NCBI GenBank assembly: GCA_022822085.1
Contig: JAJECK010000126.1
Location: 1-36,218 of the forward strand
Source of the DNA: Candidatus Poribacteria bacterium
GTDB lineage: Bacteria > Poribacteria > WGA-4E > WGA-3G
Length of the DNA stretch: 36,218 bases
Reading direction: 5' to 3'
The notes under the pieces are model-generated. The model had not been told where the DNA came from. It did no database searches and worked only from the letters and a program-made list of their open reading frames with translations. Both the position numbers and the translations under genes were made by a program. Shown piece by piece: positions 3,640 through 36,218 of the stretch (positions are counted from its first letter, which is position 1; each line of letters begins with the position of its first letter).

Positions 3640-4410
3640 TTAGTGGGTTCTCCAACCGCCTTTGTAGGTTTGTATCACCCCATTGCCACTTCCTGTTGCC
3701 TTGATGCTGACAACTTTTTTCTCTCCGTTGTTATGGACTTCCATAGCCCCGCCATCTTCATCTGCAGCGATACCGACAGCAGGGTTTCCTGCTGTGTCGC
3801 CGACACCTATAAGCCCACCATATTCAGTTGCACTGATACCGACAACTGGCTTTCCTGCTATGTTGTAGACAAATATAGCTCCACCATCTTTACGTGCACC
3901 GATACTGGCAACGGGGTTTCCTGCTGCGTTGTAGATACCTATACTCCCACGATCTTCCACTGTACCGATGACGACAACTCGCTTTTCTGCTGCGTTGCTG
4001 ACAAATATAGCTCCACTATCTTCACCTCCACTGAAGCCGACCTGGGCTTTTCCTGCTGCGTTGTAGACAAATATATCCCCGCCATCTTTACTTGTACCGA
4101 TGACGACTCCCTTTCCTGCTGCGCTGCCGACAGCTATAATCCCGCCATCTTCAGTGGCACCGATGCCAAGAACTGGCTTTCCTGCTGTGTTGAGGACTCT
4201 TATCACTGCGCCATCTTCAGTTGCACCGATGCCGACAACGCGGTTTCCTTCCGTGTTAACAACTTCCAATTCTCTACAAACGATTTTATCAATCACCTGT
4301 TCATCTTGTTGTGCGTGTATCGCGCTGCCGTTCAGTGATGTGATTATGTATCCTGCAAGCGTGAATAGACTTCCGATAAGCATATAGACTAACTTTTGTT
4401 TGAAATTCAT
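3640..4410 (-). CDS. Membrane-anchored protein of tandem ~22-24-residue Gly/Val repeats
   Basis: A 256-residue protein. Residues 7-28 form an uncleaved or signal-like hydrophobic segment (LVYMLIGSLFTLAGYIITSL), after which the chain should be outside the cytoplasm. After a short linker (VIDKIVCRELEVVNTEG) about eight copies of a repeat follow, with consensus close to AGKPVVGIGATEDGGAIFVYN. The alternation of Gly with short hydrophobic strands and conserved Asp-Gly turns suggests a beta-solenoid or stacked beta-hairpins. The start ATG at 4410 has AAGGAG upstream. I do not know a function; surface or periplasmic structural roles are plausible. It sits directly upstream of the recombinase gene. 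Confidence 0.75.
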   Translation of the reverse strand: MNFKQKLVYMLIGSLFTLAGYIITSLNGSAIHAQQDEQVIDKIVCRELEVVNTEGNRVVGIGATEDGAVIRVLNTAGKPVLGIGATEDGGIIAVGSAAGKGVVIGTSKDGGDIFVYNAAGKAQVGFSGGEDSGAIFVSNAAEKRVVVIGTVEDRGSIGIYNAAGNPVASIGARKDGGAIFVYNIAGKPVVGISATEYGGLIGVGDTAGNPAVGIAADEDGGAMEVHNNGEKKVVSIKATGSGNGVIQTYKGGWRTH

Positions 4411-27053: not shown

Positions 27054-28568
<1,515 letters not shown>

Positions 28569-28584
28569 GCTATAGAGATTCAGT

Positions 28585-28992
28585 ATGTCAAGCAGTAAGA
28601 GAAAGACAAACGAAACTTTGCATTTGAATATCACAACTCTACTTTTGTTGAGTGTTATTTTACTTATAGGGTGCAAAGGTCCCAAAAAGAATACGTCCCC
28701 AGTCCCCATTACTGAGGCGAACACACAAGAACAAAACGATAACAACAAACCCATCCCATCCGACCAAACTAAATCATAAAGCGACGCGCCAGACTGGATA
28801 GCGAACTCACCCAGAACCCCAACGATTACGACACCATGCTAAAGTCGGTGAAAAGCGCGAACTCAAGTGGTGAAGGTGAATCACCCAACGAATTCAAACG
28901 GAAAAGATTAGATGTGCTGCAGCAGCTATATGAAATGAATTCAGAAAAACCTGATCCTGATGTGCTTTATGGATTATACCATTTCTATATCC
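28585..28992 (+). pseudogene. Broken family-A TPR-like lipoprotein gene (A1)
   Basis: The first 64 codons (28585-28779) give a lipoprotein signal peptide with lipobox LIGC (Cys30) and a polar linker, then a stop. From about 28790 a different frame continues as family-A protein: ARLDSELTQNPNDYDTML and RLDVLQQLYEMNSEKPDP, matching EKALAEKPNDYDVLLT and RLDAVRRLYEMNPNHP in the intact gene at 35043-36032. The TPR-like part then ends abruptly where a 57-bp tandem array begins. A deletion or frameshift near 28780 plus the array therefore destroyed the gene. The short lipopeptide might still be made from the guaB transcript, but its ribosome site is weak. Confidence 0.65.
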
Positions 28993-29629
28993 CGTTCTCT
29001 TCCCAATGCCGCTGGCGAGGTTTCCTAACCTCGCCAAATTTCCGAATCCCGCTCTCTTCCCAATGCCGCTGGCGAGGTATCCTAACCTCTCCACATTTCC
29101 GAATTCCGTTGTCTTCCCAATGCCGCTGGCGAGGTATCCTAACCTCGCCACATTACCGAATCCCGCTCTCTTCCCAATACCGCTGGCGAGGTTTCCTAAC
29201 CTCTCCACATTACCGAATCCCGTTCTCTTCCCAATGCCGCTGGCGAGGTATCCTAACCTCGCCACATTACCGAATCCCGTTCTCTTCCCAATGCCGCTGG
29301 CGAGGTATCCTAACCTCGCCACATTACCGAATCCCGCTCTCTTCCCAATGCCGCTGGCGAGGTATCCTAACCTCTCCACATTTCCGAATTCCGTTGTCTT
29401 CCCAATGCCGCGCGAGGTATCCTAACCTCTCCACATTCCCGAATTCCGTTGTCTTCCCAATGCCGCTGGCGAGGTATCCTAACCTCTCCACATTTCCGAA
29501 TTCCGTTGTCTTCCCAATGCCGCGCGAGGTATCCTAACCTCTCCACATTTCCGAATTCCGTTGTCTTCCCAATGCCGCGCGAGGTATCCTAACCTCTCCA
29601 CATTTCCGAATTATTTTCTTAATCTTCAT
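28992..29629. repeat. 11-copy 57-bp tandem repeat array
   Basis: TTCCCAAT begins at 29000, 29057, 29114, 29171, 29228, 29285, 29342, 29399, 29454, 29511 and 29566: a period of 57 bp, with two steps of 55 bp where the unit reads GCCGCGCGAGG instead of GCCGCTGGCGAGG. Each unit holds the palindrome GCGAGGTTTCCTAACCTCGC or a decayed form. The last copy runs out into TTATTTTCTTAATCTTCAT, which matches the right end of the element at 19335-19586. Because 57 is 19 codons, long frames stay open on both strands (28836-29537 plus, 29006-29425 plus, 28894-29379 minus). I regard these as by-products, not genes. Confidence 0.9.
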
Positions 29630-29672
29630 AAAGTTTGTACTACAAGGTAGCAACTTGGGTTATACAAGGAAA

Positions 29673-29760
29673 AAATCGTACGAAAAATATCGTTATTTCA
29701 TTGATACTGTTAACCCATGTTATTTGTTCTACCTCTCTTTGCCATACACTATCAGAAAAT
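29673..29760 (+). pseudogene. Remnant of a family-B signal peptide (B0)
   Basis: In one frame this reads NRTKNIVISLILLTHVICS, close to the signal peptide of the family-B gene at 34072 (MNRHTIISLILFLLVICS). Both share the bases ATTTCATTGATACTGTT. The start codon is lost and a stop follows soon after. It suggests that a B gene once sat between A1 and A2, in the same alternating order as the rest of the cluster. Confidence 0.5.
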
Positions 29761-29872
29761 TGAGAAGACAATATTCAGAAAACGGAATAATCTATTTTTC
29801 TTTCAAAAAACCACACATGTTTTATTGAAGTGTGATACAATTACCAAAAAAGGGTCAATAAGGAGAAAAATG

Positions 29873-30883
29873 ATGAAACTTCGGATTGAAAACTTCACTT
29901 TTTTACTTACCTTTGTTGTTATTTTACTTGCGGGTTGTTCAGGGGGCGGACAAAAGACATCTCCCAAAATACCTATTGTTTCCCCGAATCAATTAACTCC
30001 AGATGGCACATCTACACCCGCTGGTGTAAAGCAAAATAACGAAACCAAAACGAAACCACTCGGAAAAACAGCAACGCTATCTGCAAAGCAGTTTAGTGAT
30101 TTGGAATACCTTGCCACGCTCAAGGAGATCGAATATATTGAAATCTCACGGGAAAATGCAGCGGGTATCCCTTTGCCGTGGGACCCAATCGTTGTGCCTA
30201 TTGAATGGTGGAAAAGACGAGTGGAAAAAGGAATAGAATTGCTTATAGCCCGAAGACAAGACACGATAACTGCTGAAGAAGTTGATAAAATTGCCTTGCA
30301 ATATCATCGGGAATATGGTCTTGTAGCATCCATGCAACTGAACATTGAATTGCGTGGCTCGATTGGTTACAGAGTGAAAAATTTAGTAAACCTTGCGTAT
30401 GCTGAGAATCCTGATGACTTTGATACCTTACTGCTATGGGTGCTTGCGGGTGGGAATCTTGTTGATCTTTATGGAGAAAAAAAGACTACAGCGACGCGTC
30501 GTTTGTTCGAAATGAACCCGGATCATCCGTGGGTTTTGCACAAACTTGCGAAATGTCTTTTAGGACACAATCCACAAGAGGCACTCGGTTATGCACAAAA
30601 GGCACAAGAGTTAGATGCGCGTTATAGACCTTTGGGTGCTGAGGGATTATGTTACTTTCAAATGGGAGATTACAAAGCAGCGTTAGCATCGTTTCGGCGT
30701 TCACATCAATATGCGGTGGAAACGTCACAACCCACTTACATAATCGGTGCTATCGGTTTTTGGGTCAGCACTGCGGAAATCGTTGTGGACAGTGGTGGCG
30801 AAGGTGAGGATGGACGAGAAAAGAAAAGAAAATCGGGACGGCCTCTCCTCGGTCCTGATCTACCGACAATGTTGTACCGATGA
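29873..30883 (+). CDS. Family-A TPR-like lipoprotein (A2)
   Basis: A 336-residue exported lipoprotein with signal MKLRIENFTFLLTFVVILLA and lipobox LAGC (Cys22), followed by a Thr/Pro/Lys linker to about residue 60. A conserved block then reads LEYLATLKEIEYIEISREN and GIPLPWDPIVVPIEWW. The last 150 residues are TPR-like helices: NPDDFDTLLLWVLAGGNLVD, RLFEMNPDHPWVLHKLAKCL, PQEALGYAQKAQEL, YFQMGDYKAALASFRRS. TPR lipoproteins usually act as protein-binding scaffolds at the envelope. AAGGAG precedes the start; I chose the second of two adjacent ATGs (29870, 29873) to match its paralogues. The 3' half is almost identical to A4 (32936-33961) at the DNA level. Confidence 0.85.
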   Translation: MKLRIENFTFLLTFVVILLAGCSGGGQKTSPKIPIVSPNQLTPDGTSTPAGVKQNNETKTKPLGKTATLSAKQFSDLEYLATLKEIEYIEISRENAAGIPLPWDPIVVPIEWWKRRVEKGIELLIARRQDTITAEEVDKIALQYHREYGLVASMQLNIELRGSIGYRVKNLVNLAYAENPDDFDTLLLWVLAGGNLVDLYGEKKTTATRRLFEMNPDHPWVLHKLAKCLLGHNPQEALGYAQKAQELDARYRPLGAEGLCYFQMGDYKAALASFRRSHQYAVETSQPTYIIGAIGFWVSTAEIVVDSGGEGEDGREKKRKSGRPLLGPDLPTMLYR

Positions 30884-30960
30884 AACAAAAATATCTCGGT
30901 GTGTCTGCTAAAAAGATAGAGGCGATGAAACAGATCGCCCAACAGAAAAGGAGAAAAATG

Positions 30961-31899
30961 ATGAAACTTCGGACTGAAAACTTCACTTTTTTACTTACAT
31001 TTGTTATTATTTTATTTGCAGGCTGCAGTGGATGTGGACAGAAAACTTCACTGCAAGAAGCACAACCACCAAATGGAGAGGGACACATGCATGATGGCGT
31101 GCTGCATCCGGATCATCCCCATGTGAATGAACGCCCGAAGATTCCATCTGCTCCTGAAAGTGATCCATTTTTTGAAACGATAGAGTTCCCGGATCCGCCA
31201 CCACAAAAGGTGGATGGACACCCACCCCTTTCCAAATCCCCGTCTCCTGTTCCTGATTTTGTTCACAATAATCCTGATCATTTTATTGTGAATGAAAGAG
31301 GTTATTTTGACGTCATATACCCGAAGGAAAAATCAAAGAAGTTAGAGGCTTGGAGGGCAAGCGGTGATACGGCAACAGACATGTCGAAGCAAGTTGAGAT
31401 TATCACAGAAGGATTAGATGCTCTACCTGCAGCTGTGGTTTTGATGCAGTATGGGGGGATTCATAGAGAAGCAGCGAAGGCGCATTTTGAAAAAGCACTC
31501 GTGGAAAACCCCGATGATTTTTACGCTCTTCTTTATTGGGCAGGTTTGATCAAGGCTGACAACCCCGCAGAAGCTGAATCTATATTCCGAAGATTAGTAG
31601 AAATGCGTCCGGATAGTTTTCGAGCACTTTATAGTTTGGGAAGACACATCGTGAGGACTTATTCCGATCCCTCTGAAGCGATTCCATATCTTGAAAAAGC
31701 ATACCACCTGGCACCTCATTATGCAGGGCCTTTGCTTGACTTAGGTATAGCATATACGAAATTGGGTGAATTTGAAAAAGCGTTGAAATACTTTGAAGCC
31801 TGCGATGTGTTCACAGGGGGACCTTCTGACGTATCCGCCATGTACGTATCTTCTATTAAAAAGAGGTTATCGTTATCAAAACAAGGAGCGAATCAATGA
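30961..31899 (+). CDS. Family-A TPR-like lipoprotein with His-rich linker (A3)
   Basis: A 312-residue lipoprotein with signal MKLRTENFTFLLTFVIILFA and Cys22 in FAGC. The linker carries a His-rich piece, GHMHDGVLHPDHPHVNE (His42, 44, 49, 52, 54), which could bind a metal ion and is absent from A2 and A4. The C-terminal 170 residues form TPR units: EKALVENPDDFYALLYWAGL, AESIFRRLVEMRPDSFRALY, EAIPYLEKAYHLAPHYAGPL, LGEFEKALKYFEACDVFTGG. The start is ATG 30961, behind AAAAGGAG; a frame extending to 30880 overlaps the A2 stop (ATGA) but has no ribosome site and would spoil the signal peptide. The TPR part is only distantly similar to A2 and A4. Confidence 0.85.
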   Translation: MKLRTENFTFLLTFVIILFAGCSGCGQKTSLQEAQPPNGEGHMHDGVLHPDHPHVNERPKIPSAPESDPFFETIEFPDPPPQKVDGHPPLSKSPSPVPDFVHNNPDHFIVNERGYFDVIYPKEKSKKLEAWRASGDTATDMSKQVEIITEGLDALPAAVVLMQYGGIHREAAKAHFEKALVENPDDFYALLYWAGLIKADNPAEAESIFRRLVEMRPDSFRALYSLGRHIVRTYSDPSEAIPYLEKAYHLAPHYAGPLLDLGIAYTKLGEFEKALKYFEACDVFTGGPSDVSAMYVSSIKKRLSLSKQGANQ

Positions 31900-31997
31900 A
31901 ACCAATACAAGCATCTGAAGTGTTTACTGGGGGACCCAGGGATGTCTCTACTCTTTTTATTTCAACTATCAACCGACATCTTAACAAAGGAGAATAA
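31896..31997 (+). pseudogene. Orphan C-terminal fragment of a family-A gene
   Basis: Thirty-three codons overlap the A3 stop (ATGA) and read ASEVFTGGPRDVSTLFISTI, closely matching the end of A3, EACDVFTGGPSDVSAMYVSS. It has an ATG but lies inside the A3 end. It is most simply the tail of a deleted neighbouring paralogue, kept in frame by chance. Expression by coupling to A3 is possible. Its last bases (AAAGGAGAATAA) supply the ribosome site of the next gene. Confidence 0.6.
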
Positions 31998-31999
31998 CA

Positions 32000-32860
32000 G
32001 TGATCCGTAATTATTTTTTCTATACGATTACCTTCCTATTCATTGTGATGTTTTGTTCGTTTGCATTTGTGCATCCAAGCATTGCAAATGGACAAGCACC
32101 GGGCAATACTCAAAACTCTTATAAGTTGGAACTAATACCGCAGGGTGTTACATGGGAAGACTGGAGACCTAAAAATAATAAGGTTCTTCCTATAAATGCT
32201 GTGATTGTTGCAGTGGCAGGCACTGTGGCTGACATCACATCAACCACGGAGTATACTTTTATTTTGAGCGAGGTATCCGATTATGAAGGATACTGTATGA
32301 ATTTTGGCACGCAGCCGGGCGATAAAAAGGATATTTACTTTCGTCAAAGTGATCAACCCAAGGACACGGAACAGTTGAAATATCGCGTGAGTGGTGAAAA
32401 TGGAGAGACTTTAAAGGTTACCTGTGAGTCATCGACTTTCAGCATTCCGATTTTTGTATTTGTTGATGACTATGGTGCTCACGGTATACTTGATGGAGCC
32501 GTAAGTCTCAACGACAAAAAGGATGAGAATGGTAGGGAAGAGGATACCACGCCCTCTAATAACGATACCGCCTCCGGCAGGCTTTCAATTCCTAAAGACA
32601 ACAACGGTAATGACATTGCCGATGGCTGGTTAGATGACCATATTCACGATTATAACCCGTGGGATGATAAAGAAAATGGTCCTGGTATCAATATGCACAC
32701 GGGTGATGGTTTCACCGTTTTTGAAGAATATCGTGGGTTCATGATTGACGGAGGACATTCTTGTTCCATCAATTTGACATCTTCATTTTTCACGAAATGT
32801 GTTATACTTAACCACGCTACGAGTCATCCTGCACGCAGAAAACAGCAATATAAGAAATAA
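32000..32860 (+). CDS. Family-B secreted protein with calcium-loop motif (B1)
   Basis: A 286-residue exported protein with a signal peptide of about 33 residues (ending IANGQA). Residues 40-165 look like a beta-rich domain (YKLELIPQGVTWEDWRP; YCMNFGTQPGDKKDIYF). A Ca-binding loop of thrombospondin type 3 style follows, DNNGNDIADGWLDDHIHDYN, then GDGFTVFEEYRGFMIDGGH. From memory, this last block also occurs in longer secreted proteins where more sequence follows; here the protein ends about 35 residues later in a non-conserved, partly basic tail, so the gene may be a truncated form. The start is GTG 32000 with AAAGGAG at the end of the fragment at 31896. B2 (34072-34961) is its sister. Confidence 0.8.
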   Translation: MIRNYFFYTITFLFIVMFCSFAFVHPSIANGQAPGNTQNSYKLELIPQGVTWEDWRPKNNKVLPINAVIVAVAGTVADITSTTEYTFILSEVSDYEGYCMNFGTQPGDKKDIYFRQSDQPKDTEQLKYRVSGENGETLKVTCESSTFSIPIFVFVDDYGAHGILDGAVSLNDKKDENGREEDTTPSNNDTASGRLSIPKDNNGNDIADGWLDDHIHDYNPWDDKENGPGINMHTGDGFTVFEEYRGFMIDGGHSCSINLTSSFFTKCVILNHATSHPARRKQQYKK

Positions 32861-32935
32861 TCATTTACATAAATTCCGCCAGCCCAACATTCCGCAGAAC
32901 AATTTAGCCTTGACGTTGAAAAAGGAGAAAGACAA

Positions 32936-33961
32936 ATGAAGTTTCAAATTGAAACCTTTACGACTTTATTGATACTCACCTTGATACTACTCGCTGGATG
33001 CAGTGGGTGTGGCGTGAAATCCATATCTGAACAAGCACAATCGTCTGTTGATACCGCGCAGGACGAGACATCTATACCCAAAGCGAATCCCATACAAACA
33101 GCAGAAAAAAGGGGGCGTGAGGTTAACTCTATACCACGCGAAAAGATAGCGAAGTTATCTCCAAAGAACTCTACGGATTTGGAGTATCTTGCCACGCTAA
33201 AAGGTGTCGAATATATTGAGATCTCACGCGAGAAGAAAGCGGGTATCCCTTTGCCGTGGGACCCGATCGTTGTTCCTATTGAGTGGTGGATAAATCGAGT
33301 GGAAAAATCAGGACAATTGCTCATAGATAGGAGATTAAAAAAGATAACAAGTGAAGAATATAATGAAATCATCTTCAAACATCTTCGGGAATATGGTCTT
33401 GTTGCATCCATGCAGCTGGACATTGAACTGCGGAGTGCCGTTAGTGGCAAAGTTCCCGCAATTGTGGATATGGCGTATGCCCAAAATCCTGATGACTTTG
33501 ATACCTTGCTGCTATGGGTGCTTGCGGGTGGGAATCTTGTTGATCTTTATGGAGAAGAAAAGACTGCAGCGACACGTCGTTTGTCCGAAATGAACCCGGA
33601 TCATCCGTGGGTTTTGCACAAACTTGCGAAATGTCTTTTAGGACACAATCCACAAGAGGCACTCGGTTATGCACAAAAGGCACAAGAGTTAGATGCGCGG
33701 TATCTACCTTTGGGTGCTGAGGGATTGTGTTACTTTCAAATGGGAGATTACGCAGCAGCGTTAGCATCGTTTCGGCGTTCACATCAATATGCGGTGGAAA
33801 CGTCACAACCCACTTACATAATCGGTGCTATCGGTTTTTGGGTCAGCACTGCGAAAATCGTTGTGGACAGTGGTGGCGAAGGTGAGGATGGACGAGAAAA
33901 GAAAAGAAAAGCAGGACTGCCTCTCCTCGGTCCTGATCTACCGACAATGTTGTACCGATGA
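32936..33961 (+). CDS. Family-A TPR-like lipoprotein (A4)
   Basis: A 341-residue lipoprotein, sister of A2, with signal MKFQIETFTTLLILTLILLA and Cys22 in LAGC. The linker differs from A2, but LEYLATLKGVEYIEISREKK and GIPLPWDPIVVPIEWW are shared. From about 33480 to the stop the DNA is nearly the same as A2 30405-30883, including identical runs over RRSHQYAVETSQPTYI, whereas 5' halves differ far more. This uneven identity suggests gene conversion or recent exchange between the two copies. TPR-like helices end the protein. AAAGGAG lies upstream. Confidence 0.85.
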   Translation: MKFQIETFTTLLILTLILLAGCSGCGVKSISEQAQSSVDTAQDETSIPKANPIQTAEKRGREVNSIPREKIAKLSPKNSTDLEYLATLKGVEYIEISREKKAGIPLPWDPIVVPIEWWINRVEKSGQLLIDRRLKKITSEEYNEIIFKHLREYGLVASMQLDIELRSAVSGKVPAIVDMAYAQNPDDFDTLLLWVLAGGNLVDLYGEEKTAATRRLSEMNPDHPWVLHKLAKCLLGHNPQEALGYAQKAQELDARYLPLGAEGLCYFQMGDYAAALASFRRSHQYAVETSQPTYIIGAIGFWVSTAKIVVDSGGEGEDGREKKRKAGLPLLGPDLPTMLYR

Positions 33962-34071
33962 AAAAGGACGAATGTTTTTGCATCTACTTTTGCCATTATG
34001 ATTTTATGAAGAATTGTGGTTGTCTATAGATATTACGAACCACATTATCAAATTAGACGTAGGAGAATCTT

Positions 34072-34961
34072 ATGAACAGACACACTATTATTTCATTGAT
34101 ACTGTTTTTGCTTGTTATATGTTCACCATTTTACTTTCATGTATGTTTGGCACAGGCAAATGGTGAAGGTTCAGCGGAAAATAAGTTTAAGTTAGAGCTT
34201 GAACCAGCGAATCCATCTACTTGGCCGGGGTGGCGGCCTGAATATAAAAAGAATGCGTTATTTGTTGCCACCATCACAGGTGAGACATCGACAGGTGTAG
34301 CAATTACGAAATTTACGAAAGTCCGGTTTACGTTTAATCTTGGCGAACCTTCACGATGGGAAGGTGTCTGCATGAATTTTAAGGGAGATCCCGATGTAAA
34401 GAAGTCCTATGATTTATTTTTCCGAAAAGGAGATAACGCGAGCGGTTCGGGATATATATATATACGGTGGAGCGTCCGATAGAGGTTCCGGGCGAGAAAA
34501 AGAATACGTCAGGTAATGTTGAGATAGGATTAGGGATGACAGAAACGGGAGGCGATAATAGTAGTGTTACTGTCTCTGTCCGTGTTAACGATAATGGTGC
34601 GGTCGGTATTTTATCTGCAAGTGCTGCCTTCAACTACGAAGACCCCCGTTCAGGAAGCTCATCATCGACGGGGGATGCAAGTGATAAGATTAGTATTTCT
34701 TTAGACAACAATGGCAACGATATTGCGGATGGCTGGTTAGATGACCATATTCACGATTATAACCCGTGGGATGATAAAGAAAATGGTCCCGGTATCAATA
34801 TGCACACGGGTGATGGTTTCACCGTTTTTGAAGAATATCGTGGGTTCATGATTGACGGAGGACATTCTTGTTCCATCAATTTGACATCTACATTTTTCAC
34901 GAAATGTGATATACTTAACACCGTGTACGATTCATCCTGCATACAGAAAACAGCAATATAA
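34072..34961 (+). pseudogene. Family-B secreted protein, frameshifted at an AT run (B2)
   Basis: Frame 1 (34072-34482) gives a signal peptide (MNRHTIISLILFLLVICS, ending CLAQA) and KFKLELEPANPSTWPGWRPE, but ends GSGYIYIRWSVR then stop. Frame 2 (open to 34961) continues with GASAAFN-like beta sequence and the Ca-loop DNNGNDIADGWLDDHIHDYN and GDGFTVFEEYRGFMIDGGH, almost identical to B1. The break lies at the (AT)6A run 34452-34464. Removing one AT gives GYIYTVERPIEVPGEKK and restores one protein of about 295 residues. TAGGAGA precedes the ATG. The gene is either dead in this isolate or switched by slippage. Sequence error is also possible. Confidence 0.75.
34452..34464. repeat. AT-dinucleotide run at the B2 frameshift
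   Basis: ATATATATATATA, six AT units plus A, lies inside the B2 coding region. Gain or loss of one unit changes the frame by two bases. Eleven bases instead of thirteen would keep B2 open. Confidence 0.85.
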
Positions 34962-35042
34962 GAAATAATCATTTATATAAATTCCGCCAGCACAACATTC
35001 CACAGAACAATCGAGCCTCGGCGTTGAAAAAGGAGAAATACA

Positions 35043-36032
35043 ATGAAACTGCGAATTGAAAACTTGACAACTTTATTGATGATGACAGTTATGCTTTTTG
35101 CGGGTTGTTCGGGATGTGCACAGAAAAATGTGCAACCGCAACAACAAGCTGAAACACCACCATCACAAACACCCACAATCAAGTTAGAACCTGAACAAAT
35201 ACCTGACGAACAGCAAGAAGTTACGGATATACAACAGCAAAAACAATCCCCTTTGATATATCCGTATCGACACAACCCAAATGTCTTATTGCCATTTCCA
35301 CAGCCAGTTATCCCACCACAAGTGCATAAAAGTGCAAATGCAGCTGCGAAAGCAGCAAAGAATGACAGATTAGCAGCTGCGAGAAAAGAGGGTGTAAAAT
35401 TAAAATTTAAAGAAAAAGAAACAATAGGTAGGAATGCAGCAGATCGAACTATTGTTGAAGCCATTGGTAATCTTGCATACGCACAATATCTTGCTCATCG
35501 TTGGAAAAGTAGAGCTTATCCATTTGCTGAAAAAGCATTGGCAGAAAAACCAAACGATTATGATGTCCTGCTGACATGGGTATATTTATATGCGTCTCGA
35601 CATCCACTTGAAGATAGTCAGCGTGTGTATGATTCTGATGATCCAGAGAGGCTTGACGCAGTTCGTAGACTATATGAGATGAATCCCAACCATCCCTATG
35701 TTTTACAGGAACTCGCTAAAATAATCTATCCGCAACACCCGCAAGAAGCTTTGGGATATGCCCAAAAAGCACTGCAGCTTGAATATCGTTATGTGACCGA
35801 TGGCCTGGATGGGATCTGTTATTTTCAATTGGGCGATTACGAAAACGCACTCGCTGCATTTAAACGGTCCCTTGTAGCCGCAGACGATGCAAAGAAATAT
35901 GGTCATGAGAACCGAATAGCATACGTCAAACGCATTATGAGCGATCCAGAAACTCAAAAGAAATTGCAAACGTGGCGAAAAGAGAATGTACCATTGATGG
36001 GTATCACAAGCGGGTGGAGACGACCAAGGTAA
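35043..36032 (+). CDS. Family-A TPR-like lipoprotein (A5)
   Basis: A 329-residue lipoprotein with signal MKLRIENLTTLLMMTVMLFA and Cys22 in FAGC. A Gln/Pro-rich linker runs to about residue 90, then an Ala/Lys-rich helix (KSANAAAKAAKNDRLAAARK). The C-terminal TPR region reads EKALAEKPNDYDVLLTWVYL, RLDAVRRLYEMNPNHPYVLQ, PQEALGYAQKALQLEY, YFQLGDYENALAAFKRS, related to A2 and A4 but clearly diverged. It is the best intact relative of the broken A1 gene. AAGGAG lies upstream of the ATG. The 150 or so bases before it are almost identical to those before A4, continuing the B1/B2 duplication. Confidence 0.86.
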   Translation: MKLRIENLTTLLMMTVMLFAGCSGCAQKNVQPQQQAETPPSQTPTIKLEPEQIPDEQQEVTDIQQQKQSPLIYPYRHNPNVLLPFPQPVIPPQVHKSANAAAKAAKNDRLAAARKEGVKLKFKEKETIGRNAADRTIVEAIGNLAYAQYLAHRWKSRAYPFAEKALAEKPNDYDVLLTWVYLYASRHPLEDSQRVYDSDDPERLDAVRRLYEMNPNHPYVLQELAKIIYPQHPQEALGYAQKALQLEYRYVTDGLDGICYFQLGDYENALAAFKRSLVAADDAKKYGHENRIAYVKRIMSDPETQKKLQTWRKENVPLMGITSGWRRPR

Positions 36033-36088
36033 TCATATAGAGACAAGATAAGCCTTTTATTTTAGTAATCTTTATATAAGAAGTCATA

Positions 36089-36117
36089 TTGAGTAAAACC
36101 TATAAATATGTTAGAAT
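36089..36117 (+). promoter_or_regulatory. Promoter of the gene at the right edge
   Basis: TTGAGT and TAGAAT are separated by 17 bases. The start would fall near 36124, about 46 nt before the ATG at 36170. Confidence 0.5.
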
Positions 36118-36169
36118 AAAGATATGAACATTAATAATTTAGGTACTATTTTTTATGAAAGGTTCTCTT

Positions 36170-36218
36170 ATGGCTAACACACCTAAAAAACAACTTAATT
36201 TCAAGAGTCTTCCGAAAC
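36170..36218 (+). CDS. Start of an unidentified gene (cut by window edge)
   Basis: The first 16 codons read MANTPKKQLNFKSLPK. The start follows AAAGG by seven bases and a promoter lies upstream. An in-frame ATG at 36155 would add MKGSL, but it lies on the ribosome site. Too little is visible to name a product. Confidence 0.5.
   Translation, partial: MANTPKKQLNFKSLPK

Follow-up and report, generated by a model that had tools for sequence, protein, structure and literature searches.

A Poribacterial Array of TPR Lipoprotein Genes and Truncated Genes for a Putative Exported Metzincin-Type Protease

Composition of the Locus

We analyzed a contig of 36,218 nucleotides from an uncultured, sponge-associated Candidatus Poribacteria bacterium (assembly GCA_022822085.1, contig JAJECK010000126.1), hereafter the window, which is the entire contig C78 of genome G000 (5.6 Mb, 158 contigs). 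Between positions 28585 and 36032 it carries an alternating array of two families of exported proteins, A and B; all genes and gene fragments of the array lie on the + strand. Family A consists in general of tetratricopeptide repeat (TPR) proteins with a lipobox or an N-terminal transmembrane (TM) helix, the anchor being called by motif and the TPRs by Pfam and fold. An earlier note, made from the letters of the window, had read the order as A1 (broken), B0, A2, A3, an A fragment, B1, A4, B2 (frameshifted), and A5, the repeated pairs each having their own ribosome site. Every element of this order was recovered in place, and an AGGAG-type site precedes each open copy.

Four of the A genes are intact, with open reading frames, a lipobox ending in AGC, and C-terminal TPRs (motif; Pfam). 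These are A2 (29870..30883; lipobox LAGC; TPR_2, E=1e-5), whose kin is found in G007 C161a (59%); A3 (30961..31899; TPR_19, E=5e-14), which belongs to the partner lineage of B1 and has kin in G007 C161b (49%) and G004 C68 (45%); A4 (32936..33961), a mosaic with A2, whose AlphaFold model (m46dc7b80663c) is all-helical with a fold resembling TPR proteins; and A5 (35043..36032; TPR_1, E=9e-5), with kin in G012 C69. A fragment of an A3-type 3' end occupies 31900..31997, where the piece at 31908-31961 is 81% identical over 54 bp to the end of the A gene of L060. A1 (28585..28990) is a broken TPR lipoprotein gene with the lipobox LIGC, a stop at 28777, and a TPR remnant (NPNDYDTML...LQQLYEMN); at the position that serves as the start in G013 and G004, the window has ACG. 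It is interrupted by a tandem repeat of 11 copies of 57 bp (28989..29611; TRF) built on the palindrome GGCGAGGTWTCCTAACCTCKCC. The 22-bp palindrome GGCGAGGTTTCCTAACCTCGCC resembles repetitive extragenic palindromic elements and is found genome-wide in G000 (179 matches, against 0 for a reversed control pattern), being amplified eleven-fold as the 57-bp unit inside A1. Long A proteins have a conserved C-terminal domain (FLxKExxAHLxG...RIVRAxExxxxxGxEEGxxxLxxxDPE; positions 300-416 of the alignment model), which the lipoprotein-type A proteins of the arrays lack.

The B genes of the window are protease stumps, and none encodes a complete B protein. B0 (29666..29734; repeat D8) is a remnant of the signal-peptide region, 87% identical over 70 bp to the start of an intact gene, B3, on contig C26. 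B1 (32000..32860) is open and has a signal peptide, an immunoglobulin (Ig)-like domain, and the Ca/EYRG motif, matching the B profile at positions 7-221 of 411 only. B2 (34072..34961) is the sister of B3, with a 3' end that resembles B1 rather than B3; a frameshift at about 34455-34470, where there is a short TA run, breaks its reading frame in two. A catalytic domain is absent from all three: no HExxH was found, and the profile matches end at 221/411. A segment comprising the B 3' end and the leader of the next A gene (32588..32935) recurs at 34695-35043 with 91-95% identity (repeats D5 and D7); the reading frames of both B1 and B2 run on into the leader of the A gene that comes next, which supplies their last ~30 residues (91% between the two).

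The stumps end at differing points, which looks like the outcome expected from repeated independent loss. A designed short form of B was considered and is unlikely, since end points differ and the tail of B1 is the leader of the next gene. The sequences are contigs of metagenome-assembled genomes, so that part of the truncations may be assembly effects, less likely for stumps that lie between two A genes on one contig. With intactness classes and locus counts assigned by hand, B is broken in about 20/43 cases versus about 7/55 for A (Fisher p=3e-4; manual tally).

The Intact B Protein

A search of the genome with B2 identified a copy of 991 aa at the very start of C26 (B3, 75% identical). C11, C143, and C155 hold further copies, which are less similar. 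These full-length proteins are 540–1012 aa long and exported, and HExxHxxxLxH is present in all of them; Pfam detects FN3 repeats in two. The earlier note had correctly recognized family A as TPR-like lipoproteins, and its description of family B as secreted proteins with a calcium loop proved incomplete, given that full-length B has the features of a zinc protease. The calcium loop is a motif only (DxNxNxIADxW, GDGLTVFEEYRG), the Pfam scan giving no EF-hand, and a short calcium-binding secreted protein is ruled out by the C26 copy together with the three further full-length ones.

A profile of 21 B sequences compared with solved structures matches metzincins, namely BaP1 (E=1.7e-7), and also archaemetzincin and ADAM33. 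With regard to the zinc-binding motif HExxHxxG/NxxH/D, the H, E, and H are invariant in the 21 poribacterial sequences, and H, E, H plus the third H in 17 B sequences of several phyla, D being the third ligand in a few. Downstream of HExxH, a Met-turn-like motif (CxM/CLMWP type) is found in many B sequences, though not aligned in all. B resembles known metzincins (clan MA(M): adamalysins/reprolysins, archaemetzincin) in its HExxHxxxLxH, the CxM motif of many copies, and the profile match, and is unlike them in its Ig-like N domain, its EYRG motif, and the D that replaces the third H in some copies. The N domain is Ig-like by AlphaFold model and fold search; the latter returned only Ig-like or similar beta-sandwich folds, all for this domain. 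No Pfam or NCBIfam family covers B above its cut-off, and the Pfam scan found no PDZ or S41 domain. The defence models of PADLOC, as well as PHROGs, gave no matches, polymorphic-toxin libraries not having been searched as such.

Taken together, the profile and the motif, on which assignment of the catalytic fold is based, indicate that intact B is most likely a Sec-exported zinc metalloprotease of metzincin type, possibly stabilized by calcium. Its predicted layout would be an N-terminal Ig-like domain, a DxNxNxIADxW/GDGxTxxEEYRG region, the HExxHxxxLxH domain, and FN3 repeats in some copies. In L027 and L070 the C-terminal part holds a cysteine-rich module (GMCGHRWCCCAP) in place of FN3.

Pairing and Co-divergence of A and B

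B is present in 20/85 poribacterial genomes. Rather than being scattered and never paired in relatives, the outcome that the earlier note had held against its own proposal, the two families are neighbors almost without exception: an A gene adjoins B on the same strand, in either order, at 37/38 B loci (hand count; the B3/A5 link is counted via the joining of C78 and C26 discussed below), the odd one out being a short B-like gene in G057. The converse does not hold, as about 19 A loci are without a B match. The distribution is that of toxin-immunity pairs, in which the effector is never without its partner and the partner may occur alone. Tandem alternation is also observed in G007 (C161 and C29), G019 (C2), and G004 (C114). 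The G007 set of A-B pairs and arrays is unusually large, with about ten B loci and 22 A matches. At L071, L072, and L080 the start of B overlaps the stop of A (ATG/TGA), and most other pairs with A first are separated by a gap of <50 nt containing a Shine-Dalgarno site.

The two families also diverge together, and the second outcome that the earlier note had named as contrary, trees with no shared order of duplication, was not borne out by the distances. The distance matrices of A and of B, built from 32 pairs, are correlated (Mantel r=0.74), a value reached in 0/2000 free shuffles and 0/5000 within-genome shuffles; as the Mantel test is not tree-aware, the within-genome shuffle is the meaningful control. 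The correlation persists for TM-type pairs alone (r 0.78; 15/3000 within genome) and for the few lipoprotein-type pairs alone (r 0.86; 141/3000 within genome). The TPR part of A and the protease part of B are correlated at r=0.75, no more loosely than two portions of a single gene (0.58, 0.69). Within B, the N domain and the protease co-diverge (r=0.58), and the C-terminal accessory modules vary among copies. A and B make up a genuine unit of two genes.

We also investigated B homologues from Acidobacteria, Brocadiia, Dadabacteria, and others. In 13/24 evaluable nonporibacterial loci, the gene directly downstream of B encodes TPRs and, in most cases, an anchor or signal at the N terminus; one of the 13 is weak (L155) and another is an alternating B-A-B-A array (L159). 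If about 3% of genes carry TPRs, which is an assumption rather than a measurement, the chance of such a count is about 1e-10 or less. Bacteroidetes-type homologues have no TPR neighbor. Judged by gene neighborhood, B adjoins a predicted partner of the A kind in three or more further bacterial phyla.

Genomic Setting and Origin of the Array

The left flank and insertion point of the array is guaB (IMP dehydrogenase; 27057..28568, + strand), and A/B genes start immediately 3' of it in the window as well as in G004, G013, and G023. Among the relatives, 18 have a ferredoxin gene directly downstream of guaB (gap of about 20-463 bp) and then a methyltransferase gene; the guaB-ferredoxin junction is empty there and occupied in 4. 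In G000, C78 carries guaB and then the array, and C26 carries the intact B3 and then the ferredoxin and methyltransferase genes that follow guaB in relatives. The right end of the window is the start of an insertion sequence (IS; 36080..36218, + strand), 88% identical over 139 bp to a copy on C11, the other end of which matches C26:3-116 at 97% aa identity. Hence, C78 closes with an IS head, C26 opens with an IS tail just before B3, and both halves match one C11 copy. Gene order in relatives agrees, being guaB-A-B(full)-ferredoxin in G013 and guaB 3' piece-A-B remnant-A-B(full)-ferredoxin in G004. Thus C78, the IS, and C26 very probably constitute a single locus that closes with an intact protease gene, on the basis of synteny rather than of a read across the gap. 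The array is an insert between guaB and the ferredoxin gene, and it is old, mosaic, and partly pseudogenised. Two further tandem repeats are found in the window, at 3752-4249 (66-bp unit x7.6) and 2108-2491 (33-bp and 108-bp units x1.9).

The earlier note had proposed amplification of one two-gene cassette. The window does contain repeats of 200-300 nt at 95% identity, beyond chance. Nevertheless, simple local amplification does not account for the array: among A2, A3, A4, and A5 divergence is mostly deep (43-48% nt identity, synonymous divergence (dS) saturated), the only close pairs being A2/A4 and B2/B3. Both of these pairs have kin in G007 C161a (A 53-59%, B 65-80%). Since both lineages have kin in other species, the array, as judged from sequence comparison, combines no fewer than two lineages of the cassette (A3-B1 and A2/A4-B2/B3) that are older than the species. 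The conserved ends and variable linkers recorded by the earlier note are largely a mosaic pattern: A2/A4 identity rises along the gene toward the 3' end (52, 77, 90, 97%), as does that between B1 and the 3' part of B2 (37, 47, 78, 99%), and such a steep rise points to partial gene conversion. Selection tests on B1, and on A3 versus the other A copies, met saturated dS. A-rich arrays with B stumps are likewise found in G007, G004, G012, and G019. In our preferred reconstruction, the window locus has probably been reworked by gene conversion, repeat expansion, and IS activity.

How the module may have entered such sites is hinted at in two relatives. In G013, to the right of the A-B pair (L079:6650-6805), there is a remnant of a second guaB, with a promoter region 91% identical and the first ~10 codons fused to the last bases of guaB, which suggests entry by guaB duplication or a single crossover. 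A wholly foreign guaB in G013 was rejected, because the gene is 93% identical to that of the sister genome G006 except for its tail. In G004 (L071:11467-11691 and L072:6599-6772), only the last 58-75 guaB codons are present, followed by A genes, and one of these loci is not at the native ferredoxin gene, so that the module may carry the guaB tail along when it moves. A site-specific integrase at guaB was also considered and discarded, as no direct repeat was seen in the flanks and no integrase was noticed. Two other G004 features concern B itself: at L071:11785-11970 the start of a signal peptide is fused to an FN3-like piece, apparently an internal deletion of a B gene, and at L072:9375-9821 a transposase-like open reading frame lies directly 3' of a truncated B, which appears to have been cut by insertion of the element.

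Function of the A-B Module

On balance, we favor a reading in which A is the envelope-anchored controller of the exported protease B, the two acting as one module, and in which the window locus is an old multi-lineage insert with decayed B and mostly intact A genes. The TPR solenoid of A, anchored in the envelope by lipid or by one N-terminal helix, would bind B and hold it at the cell envelope, on the surface or in the periplasm; it might deliver substrate to B, activate it, or keep it harmless until released. Internal B genes would have decayed to stumps, with one full-length B probably closing the array on the next contig. Given its FN3 modules and the sponge-symbiont setting, B may act on external polymers or on proteins of the host, in agreement with earlier proposals for poribacterial repeat proteins (PMC3909097).

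Several precedents bear on this proposal. In NlpI-Prc of Escherichia coli and LbcA-CtpA of Pseudomonas aeruginosa, a TPR lipoprotein docks an exported protease and delivers substrate to it or activates it (PMC5686067, PMC8764530). The A-B pair shares with these systems an envelope-anchored TPR lipoprotein, the anchor of A being assigned by motif, and an exported protease. Nonetheless, the genes of A and B are adjacent and form many diverged pairs and arrays, and their complex is a postulated one; because the protease is unrelated, we do not regard A-B as a member of the same kind. In BepA, protease and TPR domain reside on one polypeptide. A and B, unlike BepA, are two separate anchored or exported proteins with a different protease family, and no A-B fusion was seen among the loci examined. 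BepA of E. coli is a Zn-metallopeptidase in which the Zn protease and TPR work jointly in the periplasm (PMC8423444).

Some observations weigh against A as controller of B. Binding between the two and the protease activity are argued from sequence and analogy, and the AlphaFold model of B has high confidence in two helices and the N domain but no more than partial confidence in the catalytic domain. The proteases of NlpI-Prc and LbcA-CtpA are of the S41/PDZ carboxyl-terminal type, in contrast to the metzincin B. Moreover, about half of the nonporibacterial B homologues (Bacteroidetes and others) are without a TPR neighbor, and the A loci without B indicate that A may have another or an additional role.

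In the main alternative scenario, to which we give perhaps a quarter of the credence, B harms envelopes, its own or a competitor's, and anchored A protects the producer, with orphan A genes and the A-rich arrays with B stumps being a protective repertoire. B almost never occurs without A and A often without B, B is broken far more frequently (p=3e-4), stumps end at unrelated points, and the distribution is patchy with arrays in several species, all of which such protection would explain. On the other hand, the lack of matches to the defence models of PADLOC (polymorphic-toxin libraries not searched as such), the FN3 and variable C-terminal modules that point to external-polymer binding, and the fact that a protease and a TPR protein fit an adaptor role as well speak against it. 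A broader extension of these ideas, tentative and rather doubtful in our view, would make A and B an undescribed module of two exported components, spread across phyla, whose TPR anchor either controls a dedicated metzincin or guards against it. Such a module would pass from species to species through recombination at housekeeping loci, guaB among them, and would leave behind anchor arrays with protease stumps, a toxin-immunity-like footprint made of a metzincin and a TPR solenoid.

It seems improbable that A and B are mere neighbors, two eukaryote-like exported families copied together as an ancestral cassette with no joint function. Poribacteria are rich in TPR and FN3 proteins, and domain counts for those with signal peptides or TM helices are given in the parts of a survey of sponge symbionts that we used (PMC3909097), where no TPR-protease pair is described; orphan A genes are also numerous. 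Yet pairing is kept whichever gene comes first, it is found at numerous sites that are unrelated and in three or more further phyla, and translational coupling and co-divergence within genomes argue likewise. Least plausible of all, and very improbable, is recent tandem amplification of a two-gene cassette to yield a varying surface repertoire resembling antigenic variation. Alternating copies with mosaic identity and the arrays in G007, G019, and G004 might be taken for it, but most of the copies are old paralogues that have kin in other species, the B copies of the window are dead or truncated, and nothing resembling a switch was noticed beyond the TA run where B2 is frameshifted (with no specific search for inversions or promoter switches). 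That the window copies are kept as a varying pool, as the earlier note suggested, is possible and unproven because the differing ends of the B stumps resemble decay.

Neither the protease nor its partner has a curated Pfam or NCBIfam family of its own, and in the open-access literature searched we found no paper treating the two together. If A does control B, the pair would constitute a second, unrelated evolutionary solution to TPR-anchored extracytoplasmic proteolysis. Many genomes in a phylum of sponge symbionts would then carry the module, as a candidate for symbiont action or self-protection at the cell surface, and the large number of pairs that have diverged in nature allows partner specificity to be tested directly.

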